Source of the DNA: Chitinophagales bacterium
GTDB taxonomy: Bacteria; Bacteroidota; Bacteroidia; Chitinophagales; LD1
NCBI GenBank assembly: GCA_016786765.1
Contig: JAEUUZ010000003.1
Location: forward strand, 310,001 to 374,000
Reading direction: 5' to 3'
DNA: 64,000 bases
A program made the position numbers and the translations under genes. The notes below the pieces were generated by a model. It saw only the letters and a list, made by a program, of their open reading frames with translations. It was not told the DNA's origin and searched no databases. Positions 35,587 to 45,436 of this stretch are shown piece by piece; within the stretch, counting starts at the first letter, position 1, and each line of letters opens with the position of its first letter.

Positions 35587-36657
35587 ATGAATAATAAAAG
35601 TCGCATCTCAAGTTTTTCTTCCACTTTACTCCATTGGCACGAACACGAAAATTTCCGCTCTTACCCTTGGCGTGGCGAGAAAAATCCATATTATATTTGG
35701 TTGTCGGAAATCATTATGCAACAAACGCGCTCCGAACAAGGTTTGCCCTATTATCTGAAGTTCAAATCGCATTATCCTACCGTTCGCGATTTGGCGCTAG
35801 CCCCCATGGATACTGTGTTGCGCGATTGGCAAGGGCTAGGCTATTATTCCAGAGCCCGAAATTTGAAAGCTACGGCTGAGCTCATTCATTCACAATATAA
35901 TGATGTGTTTCCTTCCACTTATTCAGAAATTCTAAAACTGAAAGGCGTTGGTCCATATACTGCTGCAGCCATCGCTTCCTTTGCCTTTGGTGAATCGTGT
36001 GCGGTGGTGGATGGAAATGTGATTCGGGTACTGTCGCGCATTTTCGGTATTGAAGAACCTTTTGATTCCGGAGCAGGAAAAAAGGCATTTGACGAAAAGG
36101 CGGCATTACTCATCGATAAAAAGAATCCAGCACTTTACAATCAAGCCATCATGGATTTTGGCGCTACAGTTTGTGTGCCCAAAAGCCCGAAGTGCGGAAG
36201 CTGTCCGTTTTCAAACCAATGCTTCGCGTATCAAAAAGAGATGATTGATGTTTTGCCGTTTCGCTCCAAAAAACTGACTATCAAAAATCGCTATTTTTAT
36301 TTTCTGCATCTCGAAAGCAAAGCCGGTATTGTGTTACAGCAACGCACTACAAAAGATATTTGGCAAGATTTATGGCAGTTTCCGCTCATTGAATTGGCTA
36401 CTCCGTCCAAAAGAGGCGTTAAAGCAGAACTGAAAAAACGTTTTCCTGCAGGGTCTACATATACAATAGAAGACGAATGGACGCATGTGCAACTCCTTTC
36501 TCACCAGAAAATTCACAGCTTTGTGTTCCGCATTTCGGTCCCCGATTTGAAATTGCTGTTGCAAGAAGATTGGCAGCTTGTTCCAAACAAAAAACTCGAT
36601 GCATTCGCCTTCCCTAAAACACTACACTTGTATCTAACAGAAAAAAAATTAATTTAG
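35587..36657 (+). CDS. mutY: A/G-specific adenine DNA glycosylase
   Basis: MutY removes adenine mispaired with 8-oxoguanine. The 356-residue product has the helix-hairpin-helix and catalytic region (WLSEIIMQQTRSEQGLPYY; LKGVGPYTAAAIASFAFGES, with the aspartate in AVVDGNVIRVLSR), the iron-sulfur motif CVPKSPKCGSCPFSNQC (spacing 6-2-5) and a C-terminal NUDIX-like domain for 8-oxoguanine recognition (about residues 235-350). It is the first gene of mutY-ssb-gldE-gldD, a conserved order in Bacteroidota. Confidence 0.96.
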   Translation: MNNKSRISSFSSTLLHWHEHENFRSYPWRGEKNPYYIWLSEIIMQQTRSEQGLPYYLKFKSHYPTVRDLALAPMDTVLRDWQGLGYYSRARNLKATAELIHSQYNDVFPSTYSEILKLKGVGPYTAAAIASFAFGESCAVVDGNVIRVLSRIFGIEEPFDSGAGKKAFDEKAALLIDKKNPALYNQAIMDFGATVCVPKSPKCGSCPFSNQCFAYQKEMIDVLPFRSKKLTIKNRYFYFLHLESKAGIVLQQRTTKDIWQDLWQFPLIELATPSKRGVKAELKKRFPAGSTYTIEDEWTHVQLLSHQKIHSFVFRISVPDLKLLLQEDWQLVPNKKLDAFAFPKTLHLYLTEKKLI

Positions 36658-36681
36658 GGGTGTAAAAATTCAAACAAAATC

Positions 36682-37128
36682 ATGGTAAACAAGGTAACAC
36701 TATTGGGAAGATTAGGAAAGGACCCCCAAGTTAAGAACTTTTCTAACGACAATGCTATTGCTGAATTTCCGTTGGCAACAACCGAAACATATAAAGATCG
36801 CGAGGGGAAGTGGATCGAAATTACTGATTGGCATAACGTGAAATTGCCCTTTAAATGGATGGCAGAACGAGCCGAAAAAATCTTGAAAAAAGGCAGTTTG
36901 GTGTACATCGAAGGTAAAATCAAAACACGCTCGTATGATGATAAAGACGGCAACAAACGATATATCACCGAAATTGTAGCAGAAACCTTTAAACCCCTCG
37001 ATAAGCGCGAAAATACCGGTGGCGAGGGTGGCGGTGGTGGAAACTACGGCTCATCCAACGATTCCGTTCCGGCTCAAAACAACAGCAATAGCGGCAGTTC
37101 TGATTTCTCCGATGATTTACCTTTTTAA
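36682..37128 (+). CDS. ssb: Single-stranded DNA-binding protein
   Basis: A 148-residue SSB that coats ssDNA during replication and repair. The OB fold covers about residues 1-108 (MVNKVTLLGRLGKDPQVKNF; ITDWHNVKLPFKWMAERAEK; SLVYIEGKIKTRSYDDKDGN). The Gly/Asn-rich linker (GGEGGGGGNYGSSND) ends with the acidic tip SDFSDDLPF that recruits partner proteins. It is 24 bases after mutY and may share its transcript. Confidence 0.97.
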   Translation: MVNKVTLLGRLGKDPQVKNFSNDNAIAEFPLATTETYKDREGKWIEITDWHNVKLPFKWMAERAEKILKKGSLVYIEGKIKTRSYDDKDGNKRYITEIVAETFKPLDKRENTGGEGGGGGNYGSSNDSVPAQNNSNSGSSDFSDDLPF

Positions 37129-37167
37129 AGTATAAATCAGCGTATTCGTTAACTAAAATCAAATAAC

Positions 37168-38547
37168 TTGGACCCCAGTGGCTCGATTAGCGGAATTCTA
37201 AATCCGCATTTATTGGTAGTAATCTACAGTATTGTACATGTTCCTTCAACAGGCGTAATGGCGTCTGCTTTTGTTATGCTTTTGCTTATCATGTGTTCGG
37301 CTGTTATGGCTGCTTCCGAAATTGCATTCTTCTCCATCTCTGCAGCAGAACTCGATGAACTGAAAGAAAGCGAAGAGCGTAGTGATCAACGCTTGGTCAA
37401 ATTACTTGAACGTCCGAAGTATTTGCTCTCCACCATTTTGATTGGAAATAACCTCATCAACATTGGTGTCATTGTTATTTCGTATTTCATCATCACAAAC
37501 GTATTCAGTTTTGAGGATGTAAACTTAGGCTTTCTGATATTGCCGAAAGGGGTATTTGATTTTATTGTGAACGTGATTATTGTTACTTTCTTCTTAGTCC
37601 TTTTTGGAGAAGCTATTCCGAAGGTTTATGCCACACATAACAAATTGCCAATCGCCCGTTCGGTGAGTGGTTTGTTTACGTTTTTGAATAAACTTTTGAG
37701 TCCAATTAATTTTTTATTGGTGAACTCAACGGCTGTTATTGAAAAACGCATTAAGCGTCACAATGCAGAAATTGATATTGATGAAATCAATAAAGCCATC
37801 GATATTACGGTAGATAACAAAGCATCGAAAAACGATGTGAAAATGTTGAAAGGTATTGTGCATTTCGGAAACATCACCGTGCGTCAGGTGATGCGTCCGC
37901 GTATGGATGTAGCCGCTGCAGATGTGGAATGGGATTTCTTGAAATTGATTTCGTTTGTGAAAGAAAATGGGTATTCGCGTTTACCGGTGTTTAAAGAGTC
38001 CATTGACAATATTCAAGGGGTATTGTACATCAAAGATTTGTTGGAACACATTCATCAGGGCAAAGATTTTCAATGGCAGAAACTGATACGCGAAGCCTTG
38101 CACACGCCTGAAACCAAGAAGATTGATGATTTGTTGCGCGAGTTTCAAGAAACCAGAAAACACTTGGCCATAGTGGTGGATGAGTTTGGAGGAACATCAG
38201 GTATTGTTACATTGGAAGATATTGTGGAAGAAGTAATAGGCGATATCAACGATGAGTCCGATGAATCGGCCGATTCGCAGTTACGCAAAAACCCTGATGG
38301 TTCTTATATCGTAGAAGGTATTATGCAGTTGGGCGATTTAGCCAAAGGCCTTGAGTTGGATAACGACTATTTTGAGGAAGCCAAAGGGGATGCTGAAACC
38401 GTAGGTGGTCTGGTGGTGGAGTTGTTTGGCAGAATACCAAAAGTTGGTGATGAAGTAGCATTGCATAACTTTAAGTTTAAGGTGTTATCCTTCAAAAAAA
38501 ATCGCATCGAAAAATTGAAAATATTCAATAACACACCGCAATCCTAA
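37168..38547 (+). CDS. gldE: Gliding motility protein GldE (CNNM/CorC-type membrane protein)
   Basis: A 459-residue membrane protein. The N-terminal CNNM (DUF21) domain has three or four transmembrane helices (MASAFVMLLLIMCSAVMAAS; LLSTILIGNNLINIGVIVIS; FIVNVIIVTFFLVLFGEAIP, about residues 30-170). A CBS pair follows (about 215-345, with VMRPRMDVAA and LEDIVEEVIGDINDE), and then a CorC_HlyC C-terminal domain. The start is a TTG (MDPSGSISGILN), because an in-frame stop lies six codons upstream and the first ATG would remove 30 residues. GldE is known in Flavobacterium as required with GldD for gliding. A role in ion (Mg/Co) transport is known for relatives only. Confidence 0.93.
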   Translation: MDPSGSISGILNPHLLVVIYSIVHVPSTGVMASAFVMLLLIMCSAVMAASEIAFFSISAAELDELKESEERSDQRLVKLLERPKYLLSTILIGNNLINIGVIVISYFIITNVFSFEDVNLGFLILPKGVFDFIVNVIIVTFFLVLFGEAIPKVYATHNKLPIARSVSGLFTFLNKLLSPINFLLVNSTAVIEKRIKRHNAEIDIDEINKAIDITVDNKASKNDVKMLKGIVHFGNITVRQVMRPRMDVAAADVEWDFLKLISFVKENGYSRLPVFKESIDNIQGVLYIKDLLEHIHQGKDFQWQKLIREALHTPETKKIDDLLREFQETRKHLAIVVDEFGGTSGIVTLEDIVEEVIGDINDESDESADSQLRKNPDGSYIVEGIMQLGDLAKGLELDNDYFEEAKGDAETVGGLVVELFGRIPKVGDEVALHNFKFKVLSFKKNRIEKLKIFNNTPQS

Positions 38548-38549
38548 AC

Positions 38550-39176
38550 ATGTTTAAGAACGTAGCATCATTTGTTTCATTGGGTTTCAATCGCATCACA
38601 TTTTTGCTTTGTGTTGCTTTTGCTGGTTTGTTATCGGCTTGTCATGGCGATTTTACACCGAAGCAAAAAGCTTATCCGCGTGTTGTTTATCCTGAAAAAA
38701 AATACGAATTGTATTCGCCAACTAATTGTCCGTACGAGTTTGAAAAACCGGTGTATGCACAGATTAAAATCGATACGGTGTTCATGGGAAAGAAGCTGTT
38801 AGAGCCATGTTGGATGAATATTGAGTTTCCTGATTTTAATGGAACGATTAATCTTACCTACAAAGAAATCACTAAAGAAAACAACTTGAATAAGTTGATT
38901 GAAGATGCGCATAAAATGTCATTCAAGCATTCTAAAAAGGCCAATTACATTGACGAAGTATTGATTGCTAACAAGAACGGAGTTGGCGGTTTGTTGTACA
39001 ATGTAGGTGGCGATGCGGCTTCTAATATTCAGTTTTTCTTAACCGATACTACACACCACTACATTCGTGGTGCCCTTTATTTCAATAACGAACCGAATAC
39101 CGACAGTATGGCTCCGGTAATTGACTTTGTGAAGAAAGACCTCGACCATTTCTTGGAGACATTCAAGTGGAAGTAA
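38550..39176 (+). CDS. gldD: Gliding motility lipoprotein GldD
   Basis: A 208-residue lipoprotein: signal with lipobox LLSAC (cysteine at residue 31), then CHGDFTPKQKAYPRVVYPEK. GldD-like features include the YPEKKYELYSPTNCPYEFEK segment and a mature alpha/beta domain (NPxF-like turns and a C-terminal VIDFVKKDLDHFLETFKW). It starts two bases after the gldE stop and must be co-translated with it. GldD is essential for gliding in F. johnsoniae; its biochemical action is unknown. Confidence 0.94.
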   Translation: MFKNVASFVSLGFNRITFLLCVAFAGLLSACHGDFTPKQKAYPRVVYPEKKYELYSPTNCPYEFEKPVYAQIKIDTVFMGKKLLEPCWMNIEFPDFNGTINLTYKEITKENNLNKLIEDAHKMSFKHSKKANYIDEVLIANKNGVGGLLYNVGGDAASNIQFFLTDTTHHYIRGALYFNNEPNTDSMAPVIDFVKKDLDHFLETFKWK

Positions 39177-39263: not shown

Positions 39264-41591
39264 ATGAAAAAATTCTCCTTGTTTGCTGTACTTTGTTGCT
39301 TTGTGTTTAGTGTGTTTGCGCAATACACAGTTGGTGATAAAACAATCACCTACACCGATCCAGCTCGAAGCAACCGCTCGGTTGGCCTTCAATTCAGATA
39401 TCCCGGAACAAACACTGCTGTTGCTAATGGGCAATTCCCATTTGTGATTTTTGCACATGGATTTTCTATGAATCAAACCCCATATTTGCCTTATGCCGAT
39501 TCATTGGCTAAGCGTGGATATATAGTTGGATTGTTAACTACTGAAACAGGTCTATCGCCAAGTCATGCCAATTTTGCGCAAGATTTAGTTTTCATGTACG
39601 GTAAATTGATTTCCGAATCCAACACTAACAGTGCATCTATCTTTTATCAAAAGGTGCTGCCAAAAGGTTCATTTGGCGGGCATTCCATGGGTGGAGGAAG
39701 TACGGTGCTATCGGCACAATATGGTAATCCACAACAATGTAGTTTCACTTTTGCAGCAGCAACAACAAATCCGTCTTCCATTACTGCAGCAAAGTTTATG
39801 ACAAAACCTTACTTGGCTTTTGGGGGTAGTTTAGATTGTATTGCGCCAGTGTCTACCAACCAAAAACCAATGTACGACTCATCTGCAGCTTCATGTAAGT
39901 TTTTGATTAATATTTTGAATGGCTTGCATTGTCAGTATGGAAATGCGAGTACTCCATGCAGCTTCGGAGAAGGAACATCAGGTTGTGCCAGTTCATCGCT
40001 TACACGTCAACAGCAAATCGATAAAACCTTGTTCTATCTCGTCCCTTATTTAGATTATTATCTAAAGGGCGATTGTGCGGCTTGGACATTGTTTGAATCG
40101 CGCTATTCATCGAATACAGTAGATGCATTGCAAAGAAGCTGCACGAATAGCATACCTTCCAATCAAGGTATAACAGGCAATTTGTCCTTCTGCACCGGCC
40201 AAAGTACCACACTCACTGCTAATCCTGCGGGTTTCAATTATGTTTGGAACAATAACTCCACAGCCAATACTTTGAATGTAAATACAGCAGGTGCTTATAG
40301 TGTTGTGGTAGGAAATGGTGTTTGTTCATTACCGGCAGCCACGGCAACAGTAACGCAAAAATCAACACCTGCAACACCTTCAGCCATTTCACTAAATGAT
40401 ACCGTATGCACGGGTATTGCAGGAATAACTGCTTCTGTAACTAATGATCCAATCGCAACGCAATACAATTGGACTTTACCTTCGGGTTGGTCAATTACAC
40501 AAGGCAATAACTCGAATAGCATTCAAGCAACTTCAGGAACCAGCGGAGGTACAGTGCAAGTAACGGCTCAAAATAGTTGCGGTACAAGTGCTGCAAGTCA
40601 GAAAGCCGTAACTGTTTTGCCTTCCAATTTAGGAACAGCAGGGGCTATCAGCGGCTCGCAAACGCTCTGTAAAACGGCATCCGGCAATTATTCTATCGCA
40701 ACGGTTACAGGAGCTACTTCGTATACTTGGACTTATCCTTCGGGCTGGAACGTAAGCGGAGCAAGTAATGCAAACACAATCACATTAACACCAACGGCTA
40801 GTGCTGTATCCGGACAAATCACCGTAGCTGCTGCAAACAATTGCGGTAACAGCACACCGGCATCCTTATCTGTTCAAGTGAATGCACCGCCATTGTTGGG
40901 CGCTATTAATGGACCAACTACAGTTTGTGTTGGAAATAATATAGGTTATAAAGTTGATATTACCGGACCGGGAATTATTACTTGGACGAATCCCGGCTTT
41001 CAAGTAGTAAGTGGTGCAGGAACAGATTCTATTTATGTGTTGGCTGTAGGACCTACGGGAACAAACAGTTTGAGTGTTAGCGCCCAAAACAATTGCGGAA
41101 CTGCAACACCGGCTTCGCAAAGTGTAACTGTTGTAGATACACCTTCAATTACAATCGCTAACATCGGCAACTATATTGCCATTAATAGTGGCGGTGGAGG
41201 AACTGTAGTTTGGTTCATCAATGGGCAGCAACAAAGTGTAGGTAACGATACGATTTTTGCAATTGCAACAGGTGATTATCAGGCATTGGTTACAAATGCT
41301 AATGGTTGTAGTGGATGGTCAAATGTAGTGTATTATGAGATTGTTGGGGTTGAAAAGGTTACAACAAACGCAGCCATTAAAATCTATCCAAATCCGGCAA
41401 AAGACATCGCTGTCATTCATATTAATTCGACTCAGTTAGGCGAAGATTTGAAAGTAACCGATGCTAATGGCAGAGTGGTTTACAAGCAAACAATCACAGA
41501 CAAGGAGATTGTATTACAGGTGAAGGACTACGCCAAAGGCCTTTATCTAATAAGCATTGGCGATGAGAAGCAGAAGTTTGTTGTGGAGTAG
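39264..41591 (+). CDS. T9SS-exported cutinase/PETase-like hydrolase
   Basis: A 775-residue exported enzyme. Signal peptide MKKFSLFAVLCCFVFSVFAQ, then an alpha/beta hydrolase domain (about residues 25-280). The oxyanion region FVIFAHGFSMNQTPYLPYAD, the nucleophile elbow GHSMGGGSTVLSAQ (Ser141), the acid motif GGSLDCIAPVSTNQKPMYDS (Asp191) and the histidine NGLHCQYG (His222) reproduce the order and spacing of Thermobifida-type cutinases (GHSMGGGG, then LDTIAPV, then HF). Five cysteines in the domain suggest disulfides. After it come three or four Ig/PKD-like repeats and a T9SS type A tail (IKIYPNPAKDIAVI to KQKFVVE). It is therefore likely a secreted esterase acting on polyesters or lipids. Substrate is inferred, not shown. 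Confidence 0.86.
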   Translation: MKKFSLFAVLCCFVFSVFAQYTVGDKTITYTDPARSNRSVGLQFRYPGTNTAVANGQFPFVIFAHGFSMNQTPYLPYADSLAKRGYIVGLLTTETGLSPSHANFAQDLVFMYGKLISESNTNSASIFYQKVLPKGSFGGHSMGGGSTVLSAQYGNPQQCSFTFAAATTNPSSITAAKFMTKPYLAFGGSLDCIAPVSTNQKPMYDSSAASCKFLINILNGLHCQYGNASTPCSFGEGTSGCASSSLTRQQQIDKTLFYLVPYLDYYLKGDCAAWTLFESRYSSNTVDALQRSCTNSIPSNQGITGNLSFCTGQSTTLTANPAGFNYVWNNNSTANTLNVNTAGAYSVVVGNGVCSLPAATATVTQKSTPATPSAISLNDTVCTGIAGITASVTNDPIATQYNWTLPSGWSITQGNNSNSIQATSGTSGGTVQVTAQNSCGTSAASQKAVTVLPSNLGTAGAISGSQTLCKTASGNYSIATVTGATSYTWTYPSGWNVSGASNANTITLTPTASAVSGQITVAAANNCGNSTPASLSVQVNAPPLLGAINGPTTVCVGNNIGYKVDITGPGIITWTNPGFQVVSGAGTDSIYVLAVGPTGTNSLSVSAQNNCGTATPASQSVTVVDTPSITIANIGNYIAINSGGGGTVVWFINGQQQSVGNDTIFAIATGDYQALVTNANGCSGWSNVVYYEIVGVEKVTTNAAIKIYPNPAKDIAVIHINSTQLGEDLKVTDANGRVVYKQTITDKEIVLQVKDYAKGLYLISIGDEKQKFVVE

Positions 41592-42432: not shown

Positions 42433-43893
42433 TTATTCCACCACAAAATCACTCGCCTTCAATTGCTTTACTTTCCACCAAAACTGAAAAGTAAAGCCTG
42501 GCCAAATAGATGTGTTTTTGCCGTTAGAAGTGGTGTACCAACTCTTACAGCCCGAGTTCCAAATGGTGTTTTTTAGTTTTTCTTGAAGTGTTTTGTTGTA
42601 TTCGTCTTGTACGTTTTGTTTTACTTCGATTTTCTTTTTGCCTGAGTTTTTGAGTAATTGAATGCTCTGCAAAATGTATTCAATTTGTGATTCAATCATA
42701 AACACCATCGAGTTGTGCCCCAATCCCGTATTTGGTCCAATAACTAAAAACATATTCGGGAAACCATGGACTGCTGTTCCCAAATAGGCTTCCGGTCCGC
42801 TTTCCCATAATTCGCCTAGCACAATACCGTTACTACCTTTCACAATCAATTCTTTCGGGTATTCAGCAGCATTAAAACCTGTGGCGAAGATGATGGCATC
42901 AACAGCGGTTTCTTTTCCGTCTTTTGTAATAATGCTATTGTCTTTAATTTCTTCAATGCCATCGGTAATCACTTCTACATGGCTTTTACAAATGGCCGGA
43001 TAGTATTCGTTCGATAATAAAATGCGCTTGCATCCAATGCTGAAATTAGGTGTTACTTTTTTACGCAGCGCTTCATTGGGCACCGATTTTTTCAAGAACA
43101 GCAAGGCCAGCTTTTCCAATACTTTCAAGATGCCGGGATTAATCACCATACCAATGGCGGTGAGTTCGTTGATGAGATATACTTTGTTGCGGAGCCAACG
43201 TTGAGAGAAGGGCAATGTTCTAAACAATCGCTTTTCCCAGTCTTTCATGGCACGATCGCGTTTCGGAATAATCCATGGCGCGGTGCGCTGAAACAAATGC
43301 AATTCCTTCACTTCGTTTACAATGTTCGGCACAATTTGTATGGCGCTAGCACCAGTACCAATTACGGCTACTTTTTTGTCTTTTAAATCGCAAGTGTGAT
43401 TCCAATGCGAAGAGTGAAACGTAGTGCCTTTAAAGTTTCCCAACCCCTTAATATTAGGTGTTACTGCACGGTTTAGCGGTCCCATCGCATTTACTAAAAA
43501 TTGCGTATGATATTGTTTGCCGGAAGCAGTATGAACAATCCACACGGCTTGATTGTCGTCAAAGGCCATACTATCCACGTTTTCACCTAAATGCGTGAAA
43601 GGCGCAAGATTATATTTGTTGTAGCAATGGTACATGTAATCCTGAATCTCGTGATGAGGCGAAAACATTCTACTCCAATCCGGATTCGGTTCAAACGAGA
43701 AAGAATACAAGTGAGACGATACATCGCAAGCCGCACCGGGGTAGGTGTTATCGCGCCAAGTGCCACCAATCTTTTGGTCGCGCTCCAGCATAATAAAATC
43801 GGTTATCCCCGATTGTTTAAGTCGAATGGCCATTCCTATGCCTCCAAAACCTGCACCAATAATTACAATTTGTGTTCGGATAATATCCGCCAT
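42433..43893 (-). CDS. Flavin monooxygenase, Baeyer-Villiger type
   Basis: A 486-residue FAD/NADPH monooxygenase. The first Rossmann motif is IVIIGAGFGGIGMAIRLKQS (residues 10-29), then the GGTWRDNTYPGAACDV segment, the fingerprint FKGTTFHSSHWNH (Baeyer-Villiger consensus FxGxxxHxxxW) and the second Rossmann motif VAVIGTGASAIQIVPNI. GPNTGLGHNSMVFMIESQ near the C-terminus is also typical. It inserts oxygen next to ketones or oxidises heteroatoms. The substrate is unknown. It follows the 508-aa T9SS protein gene by 16 bases and may be in one operon with it. Confidence 0.92.
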   Translation of the reverse strand: MADIIRTQIVIIGAGFGGIGMAIRLKQSGITDFIMLERDQKIGGTWRDNTYPGAACDVSSHLYSFSFEPNPDWSRMFSPHHEIQDYMYHCYNKYNLAPFTHLGENVDSMAFDDNQAVWIVHTASGKQYHTQFLVNAMGPLNRAVTPNIKGLGNFKGTTFHSSHWNHTCDLKDKKVAVIGTGASAIQIVPNIVNEVKELHLFQRTAPWIIPKRDRAMKDWEKRLFRTLPFSQRWLRNKVYLINELTAIGMVINPGILKVLEKLALLFLKKSVPNEALRKKVTPNFSIGCKRILLSNEYYPAICKSHVEVITDGIEEIKDNSIITKDGKETAVDAIIFATGFNAAEYPKELIVKGSNGIVLGELWESGPEAYLGTAVHGFPNMFLVIGPNTGLGHNSMVFMIESQIEYILQSIQLLKNSGKKKIEVKQNVQDEYNKTLQEKLKNTIWNSGCKSWYTTSNGKNTSIWPGFTFQFWWKVKQLKASDFVVE

Positions 43894-43909: not shown

Positions 43910-45436
43910 TTATTCGTCACTTTTTACAATCATTTGTTGCGTCAGTACCCCTTTTTCGGAACTTACCTCAACAATATAAATTCCGGCAGCTAAATCGGCA
44001 GTATTATACTTTTTAGCGAAAGTGCCTTGCTCCAATTCAATGTTTTCTTGGAATGTAACTTGTCCGTTCAATGCGTATAAAGCAACTTTGATACGTTTAA
44101 TATCCGTTGATTTTAATTCGATGTTAACGAATTGAACCATAGGGTTAGGAAACACGGCCAACTGTATGTTTGGCAAGTTGTTTACACTTGCAGTTTTATT
44201 GCGAGCAGAAGGGAAAAGTACATTGTTCAGAATCAAGCGATAGCCTGAAGATGTTTTGTTGTTGTCTAAATTGGTGTTGGCTCCACCTACATAATGGCGC
44301 GCAACAACCGGGTCGTGACCACCTAAGAATGTGAATGACCCTGCACCTATGTGGCCATGCAAATAACGCGCTTCTTGCGGGTTACTGTTCGTAGCCAATA
44401 CCGTCACATTGGGTTTTACAAAAGCACGATTGTAGGCTGTAGTTTGACCGGCAAACCCAGTGAGAGTAGCGTTGTGGTTTTGTGTAAGCATCGCTCCGGT
44501 AACATCTTTTCGAGCATCTACCAAGGTCAATAGAATCGGATCTTTAGTTAAATCTCTGTTGCCAATGGCAATATCGATGTTAGAGAAATCGTCTGCCTTA
44601 GCACTTGTATTAATCGTAAAGTTTTGAAAGGCAAATGTGTTGTTGAAGTTTAGTTTCTTATTTGCTTCTGCATCCGCCAAAGTGCCGTCAATTTCGGCAG
44701 GAATAATATCAACGCCATTGGCTGCAAGTGCAACGTCCAAAGCTTCTGTAGCGGTGCACATAGCGAATAATTGCCCGCCATTCTCAACAAACGATTTCAG
44801 TTTTTTTGCTACAGCTAGTTTCATATCCGCCACTTTTTTATATCCTAGCGCAGCCGCTTCTTTTTCTGCACCAGCCTTTTGGTTCTTATACCAAGCGGCA
44901 TTACTGTAAAAATAATTCCATTTGCTATACTGGCCGGTAAAATCTTCGTGGTGCAAGTGAATCCAATCGTATTGATTCAAATCACTGCTCAGTACTTCGC
45001 TATCATAGATAGTTTTATAATCAATGCCAGCGTATTGCAATGCCAGGGTCACTGCATCATCATACGGTTTATTGTAGGGTGGCGCATACACAGCAATTTT
45101 TGGCAGCTTGCTTAACGAAACCAAGTTTGTTCCTTTATCGCCTTTAAGCACAGTGTTTACTATCTCTGCCGTTTGATTATCGCTGAGTGTTTCAAACGTA
45201 ACATCGGTAAGTGCTACAATTTGCTTGTTTGTTTCATTATCTGCCAAAATAAAACTTCCACCTCTATAATTAAGCAACCATTGAACAGTACCTTCATTTT
45301 TCAGGGTTTGAAAGGCAATACCATACGCTTTTAGGTGGTTCTTTTGCGTATTGTCCATGGGCAATAATAAATAACTTGCCTTTGTCATCGAAAGGAATAA
45401 AAATGCAAATGTTATCGTAGCTGTTAATCGTTTCAT
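43910..45436 (-). CDS. Secreted protein of the 'asparagine synthetase B'-like Bacteroidota family, T9SS-sorted
   Basis: A 508-residue exported protein. Signal peptide RLTATITFAFLFLSMTKA, then SYLLLPMDNTQKNHLKAYG and VQWLLNYRGGSFILADNET, the recognisable start of a Bacteroidota family often auto-labelled asparagine synthetase B although no glutaminase or synthetase motif is visible. The middle (VYAPPYNKPYDDAVTLALQY; WIHLHHEDFTGQYSKWNYFY; GGQLFAMCTATEALDVALAA; LHGHIGAGSFTFLGGHDPVV) resembles a glutamine-amidotransferase-like or ThuA-like Rossmann fold. The last 80 residues are a T9SS type A tail (LAVFPNPMVQFVNIELKSTD to MIVKSDE). Activity unknown. Transcribed upstream of the monooxygenase. Confidence 0.8.
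   Translation of the reverse strand: MKRLTATITFAFLFLSMTKASYLLLPMDNTQKNHLKAYGIAFQTLKNEGTVQWLLNYRGGSFILADNETNKQIVALTDVTFETLSDNQTAEIVNTVLKGDKGTNLVSLSKLPKIAVYAPPYNKPYDDAVTLALQYAGIDYKTIYDSEVLSSDLNQYDWIHLHHEDFTGQYSKWNYFYSNAAWYKNQKAGAEKEAAALGYKKVADMKLAVAKKLKSFVENGGQLFAMCTATEALDVALAANGVDIIPAEIDGTLADAEANKKLNFNNTFAFQNFTINTSAKADDFSNIDIAIGNRDLTKDPILLTLVDARKDVTGAMLTQNHNATLTGFAGQTTAYNRAFVKPNVTVLATNSNPQEARYLHGHIGAGSFTFLGGHDPVVARHYVGGANTNLDNNKTSSGYRLILNNVLFPSARNKTASVNNLPNIQLAVFPNPMVQFVNIELKSTDIKRIKVALYALNGQVTFQENIELEQGTFAKKYNTADLAAGIYIVEVSSEKGVLTQQMIVKSDE

Follow-up and report, generated by a model that had tools for sequence, protein, structure and literature searches.

A predicted T9SS-exported PETase-like serine hydrolase of a Chitinophagales bacterium, assigned to a separate Bacteroidota clade

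The analysed window, a stretch of 64,000 nucleotides from a Chitinophagales bacterium, contains a complete open reading frame with an ATG start at 39264..41591 of the forward strand, encoding a product of 775 amino acids. Four consecutive forward-strand genes, mutY-like, ssb-like, gldE-like (CNNM/CBS/CorC) and gldD (PF25593, 217 bits), are located directly upstream at 35587-39176. On the reverse strand, 42433-43893 encodes a flavin-binding monooxygenase-like protein (PF00743), possibly of the Baeyer-Villiger type, an ester-forming activity that no evidence links to the esterase. Another T9SS-tailed protein, of 508 amino acids and with no other recognised domain, is encoded at 43910-45436 on the same strand. 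A conserved operon was considered as a clue to the substrate and rejected; in 14 related loci, compared over flanks of up to about 8 kb with the PET30-like control L064 excluded, none of the neighbours (mutY, ssb, gldE, gldD, HPP, FMO-like, T9SS protein) accompanies the gene. The neighbourhood is not conserved and does not indicate the natural substrate.

In silico analysis of the gene product revealed the following modules:

39264..39323, forward strand: signal peptide region, residues 1-20, MKKFSLFAVLCCFVFSVFAQ, by sequence inspection
39324..40160, forward strand: PETase-like alpha/beta-hydrolase domain, residues 21-299, by PF12740, AlphaFold2 and PDB fold matches
40161..41381, forward strand: Ig/PKD-like spacer, residues 300-706, by PF19408 (PKD_6), 154 bits
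41382..41585, forward strand: T9SS type A sorting domain, residues 707-774, by TIGR04183 (40.3 bits) and PF18962 (43.2 bits)

The putative signal peptide is typical by inspection; its region forms a helix (3-15) in the first structure model, and the homologue alignment there is loose. The original prediction placed an Ig/PKD stretch between the catalytic domain and the sorting tail, and the domain scan agrees, with PKD_6 matching in three stretches, the best at 369-448. Among relatives the part preceding the tail consists of PKD_6 (up to five stretches), PKD, SprB repeats, no assigned domain, or is missing altogether, and therefore the Ig/PKD stretch is an exchangeable spacer and no defining trait. 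The same catalytic domain and tail are found in relatives of 381-971 amino acids. The tail lies at the extreme C-terminus and its TIGR04183 score exceeds the cut-off of 23. The host genome, 3.6 Mb in size and 100% complete, has a T9SS: SprA was detected at 2543.8 bits, about 150 proteins carry T9SS sorting tails, and gldD and the gldE-like gene upstream of the reading frame add to the machinery. Export by this system, as originally proposed, is thus well supported.

The HMM search suggested along with the original prediction assigned the catalytic domain, scanned alone, to the PETase family PF12740 with 41.4 bits at a cut-off of 28 (41 bits in the genome search). A scan of the full-length protein, repeats included, misses the match, and this is taken to be an effect of the HMMER composition filter acting on the repeat region. 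In long T9SS proteins of this kind, the catalytic domain may escape automatic annotation.

PET hydrolases were matched already by phmmer at 2e-12, and they led the PDB profile searches both with a 21-row profile (5e-21) and with a 63-row profile (1e-29). A first structure model, based on 21 sequences (pLDDT 83.9, with the loop 226-239 below 50), was replaced by an AlphaFold2 model based on 63 sequences, with a pLDDT of 95.8 and a pTM of 0.93. Every one of the best 50 PDB fold matches of the latter is either an IsPETase variant or a related polyester hydrolase or cutinase, at TM values of about 0.7 by query length and 19-23% identity. A viral fold library returned generic alpha/beta hydrolases only. 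A peptidase or an unrelated lipase, the outcome named beforehand as speaking against the assignment, is excluded by PF12740 and by the PDB profile and fold searches, in which PET hydrolases rank first. By these matches the gene product is a member of the PETase-like (PF12740) alpha/beta-hydrolases. The particular resemblance to Thermobifida cutinases that had been proposed was not borne out; IsPETase types top both the sequence and the fold searches, and the gene product resembles PETases as a whole.

Homologues were collected from relatives (34 of 61 genomes) and from the class, in which 136 of 395 genomes had matches, spread over 65 of 197 genera; strong matches outside the class are few. 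Within the class, the matches run from 1e-119 to about 1e-50, fragments aside, and then fall to 1.7e-16 at L064, a PET30-type enzyme that matches PDB 7PZJ at 299.6 bits. In a maximum-likelihood tree, 69 clade members are separated at 100/100 from eight PETase references (PDB sequences plus L064 and L069, among them IsPETase, PET2, Ple628 and PET30), so that the gene product does not fall among the PET-active enzymes. Its catalytic domain shares 19-27% identity with the references and about 22% with PET30. The best 30 PF12740 loci in 198 class genomes comprise 28 from the clade of the window and two PET30-like ones, the latter type scoring 151-177 bits compared with 41 bits for the gene product. 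The literature yielded no description of the clade beyond a possible member, PET38. The clade is a common, separate and apparently undescribed branch of Bacteroidota enzymes outside the PET30/IsPETase group.

The positions of interest in the catalytic domain are:

39456..39464, forward strand: HGF motif (H65-G66-F67), oxyanion/clamp position, P-G-Y/F in PETases; each residue in 69/69 clade members
39564..39584, forward strand: H101 and D107 (PSHxDFAxD region), clade-specific, 69/69 each, not conserved in PETases
39684..39686, forward strand: catalytic Ser141 in GHSMGGG, 69/69
39753..39791, forward strand: residues 164-176 (AAATTNPSSITAA), the segment bearing the clamp Trp in PETases, here without Trp
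39834..39836, forward strand: catalytic Asp191, 69/69
39837..39839, forward strand: Cys192, next to the catalytic Asp, predicted partner Cys241 (39984-39986)
39894..39896, forward strand: Cys211, predicted partner Cys293 (40140-40142)
39927..39929, forward strand: catalytic His222, 69/69
39930..39977, forward strand: loop and extra helix (230-238) after the catalytic His; Cys223 and Cys232, 69/69

The catalytic residues had been numbered correctly; GHSMG occupies 139-143, SLDCIAPV holds Asp191 and GLHCQYG holds His222. The motif GHSMGGG, which includes Ser141, had likewise been read accurately. The triad is present on the fold in the GxSMGGG / DxxAP / H arrangement and is invariant in the 69 distinct homologues, in which GHSMGGG is nearly invariant. 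Because of this conservation, the PF12740 score above its cut-off and the PDB profile match at 1e-29, the motif match is not due to chance.

The substrate clamp differs from that of PETases. Phe67 and Met142 of the Tyr/Phe-Met-Trp(Tyr) clamp are present and the Trp is missing; none of the 69 members has it within residues 163-176, where position 163 alone holds an aromatic residue (Phe or Tyr). The reference Trp is aligned opposite A166, P170 or a gap, depending on the alignment program, and since no Trp occurs anywhere in 163-176, its loss is independent of the alignment. In the clade this segment reads (A/E)xTxPS(S/A), with Thr168 and Pro170 (the T-x-P motif) in every member. Past the catalytic His, the 63-sequence model has an extra helix at residues 230-238 (211-219 in model numbering), which in this model could cover part of the active-site cleft.

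The extra cysteines mentioned in the original prediction are real: the catalytic region holds eight (159, 192, 211, 223, 232, 241, 271 and 293). Cys192 occurs in 54 of the 69 members, all of them with a Cys near 239-241, and the other 15 lack both; Cys211 and Cys293 are both found in 67 and neither in two. Disulfides 192-241, 211-293 and 223-232 are predicted because these cysteines co-occur across the 69 members, a co-occurrence that is partly phylogenetic, as the members are related and those without Cys192 are partly clustered. L032, which sits deep among the Cys192-bearing members in the tree, has nevertheless lost both Cys192 and its partner. Cys159 and Cys271 have no co-varying partner among the 69 members. 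A pairing of Cys192 with Cys223, which flank the catalytic Asp and His, was considered and dropped, for Cys223 is invariant while Cys192 is missing in 15 of the 69 members and tracks Cys241.

Bacteroidota PET esterases with a T9SS tail have been described, as the original prediction noted: PET27 from Aequorivita and PET30 from Kaistella jeonii, PDB 7PZJ (PMC8767016). A PETase-like domain joined to such a tail is therefore not new. The gene product resembles PET27 and PET30 in fold, Ser-Asp-His triad, putative signal peptide, T9SS tail and Phe at the first clamp position. In contrast to them, it lacks Trp or Tyr at the third clamp position, carries different cysteines, belongs to a separate clade and possesses a PKD spacer. 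PET38 from Fluviicola taffensis (WP_083800582.1), a protein of 447 amino acids with a T9SS tail and a Phe-Met-Ala motif, was inactive but poorly produced (PMC8767016). As aligned here, its motif corresponds to F67-M142-A166, and its length fits the relatives of 400-500 amino acids; judged by motif, length and tail rather than by sequence comparison, PET38 may be a clade member.

IsPETase of Ideonella sakaiensis shares the triad with the gene product and ranks first in the profile and fold searches (TM 0.74 by query for the fold match). The disulfide C203-C239 of IsPETase also connects its Asp and His loops (PMC10546322), but the cysteines here are placed elsewhere (D+1 with H+19; H+1 with H+10). 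The clamp Trp and GWSMGGG of IsPETase are replaced, a helix is added after the His, and export would proceed by T9SS. Thermobifida cutinases and LCC, variants of which appeared in the first fold search, share the fold and GHSMGGG; unlike them, the gene product lacks the Trp clamp of cutinases and combines T9SS export with a PKD spacer, and the cutinases are not its closest group. The co-varying cysteines near the catalytic Asp and His offer a natural comparison for the active-site disulfide of IsPETase.

We consider it rather probable, on sequence evidence, that the gene encodes a T9SS-exported serine carboxylic-ester hydrolase of a separate PF12740 clade, suiting natural esters over aromatic polyester. 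The protein would cross the inner membrane by Sec, its catalytic domain would fold with up to three disulfides, and T9SS would carry it across the outer membrane, with removal of the C-terminal tail. The PKD repeats may hold the enzyme off the surface or serve in binding. With His222 and Asp191 activating it, Ser141 would attack the ester carbonyl; the main-chain amides of Phe67 and Met142 would hold the oxyanion. The reshaped cleft, without the Trp clamp and with invariant H65, H101 and D107 and a cysteine-flanked helix after His222, would suit natural esters (lipid, cutin-like oligomer, acylated polysaccharide) more than aromatic polyester chains.

An alternative, to which we give a minor share of the probability, is a lipase/phospholipase-like or chlorophyllase/PAF-acetylhydrolase-like enzyme acting on lipid or chlorophyll-type esters, with the PETase likeness reflecting common ancestry only. 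It draws on the HGF region (53-89), which weakly matches the Chlorophyllase and PAF-AH Pfam models, and on several relatives that exceed the 26-bit cut-off of the Chlorophyllase model (with 43.7 and 41 bits, for example). However, PF12740 outscores the Chlorophyllase and PAF-AH models wherever it is detected, and PET hydrolases come first in the fold and profile searches.

A true polyester or PET hydrolase that leaves the cell by T9SS, as PET27 and PET30 do, and binds polymer through its PKD repeats appears unlikely. The fold, the triad, the GxSMGGG and DxxAP motifs, the PF12740 score above the cut-off and a T9SS tail as in PET27-30 (PMC8767016) agree with such an enzyme. Against it stand the separate clade with 22% identity to PET30, the PF12740 score far below that of PET30-like loci, the clamp Trp missing in all 69 members, and the inactivity of PET38, which shares the Phe-Met-Ala motif, though it was poorly expressed. 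A further point against it is that no ring-hydroxylating dioxygenase alpha subunit was found in the host genome, while control genomes were matched; growth on terephthalate via the usual dioxygenase is therefore not expected. No tannase/MHETase-family gene was detected in the host genome either, a result without weight since the control also gave no match. PET30 is active on PET with Tyr replacing the Trp (PMC8767016), so that the Trp loss alone is no proof of inactivity; it does make PET hydrolysis less likely. Of the original call of a cutinase/PETase-like hydrolase, the fold, the triad and the secretion hold, whereas PET activity has against it the 100/100 split, the 19-27% identity and the absent Trp; this part is unproven and probably wrong. 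The gene is most likely not evidence of plastic degradation.

A degenerate hydrolase serving in ligand binding only would agree with the lack of a known activity for any clade member and with the inactivity of the poorly expressed PET38, but it is very improbable given a triad and nucleophile elbow invariant in 69/69 members across many families, a conservation that only selection for catalysis would lead one to expect.

Returning to the exported ester hydrolase, we see about an even chance that its clade is a family of esterases, centred on Bacteroidota, undescribed so far and exported by T9SS, with an active-site design of its own: (i) no Trp clamp; (ii) invariant H65, H101 and D107; (iii) a cysteine-flanked helix after the His; (iv) cysteines that tie the Asp and His loops, placed unlike those of IsPETase. 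Searches for plastic degraders use profile models and motifs, and a common exported clade passes the models without the feature linked to PET binding. If this reading of the clade is true, HMM counts of Bacteroidota "plastic degraders" would be strongly inflated, because most PETase-model matches of the class belong to it. Inactivity of the members on PET would call for a correction of environmental PETase counts for Bacteroidota; activity would mean that the Trp clamp matters less than has been believed.

Within the clade, L093 and L090 (G073, G153) comprise two divergent members in same-strand tandem, one of the basal type without Cys192 and one of the derived type. At G116:C1:3770228-3772280, several clade matches are adjacent, and one piece has an internal TAA, which suggests a decayed copy beside an intact one of 1102 amino acids.
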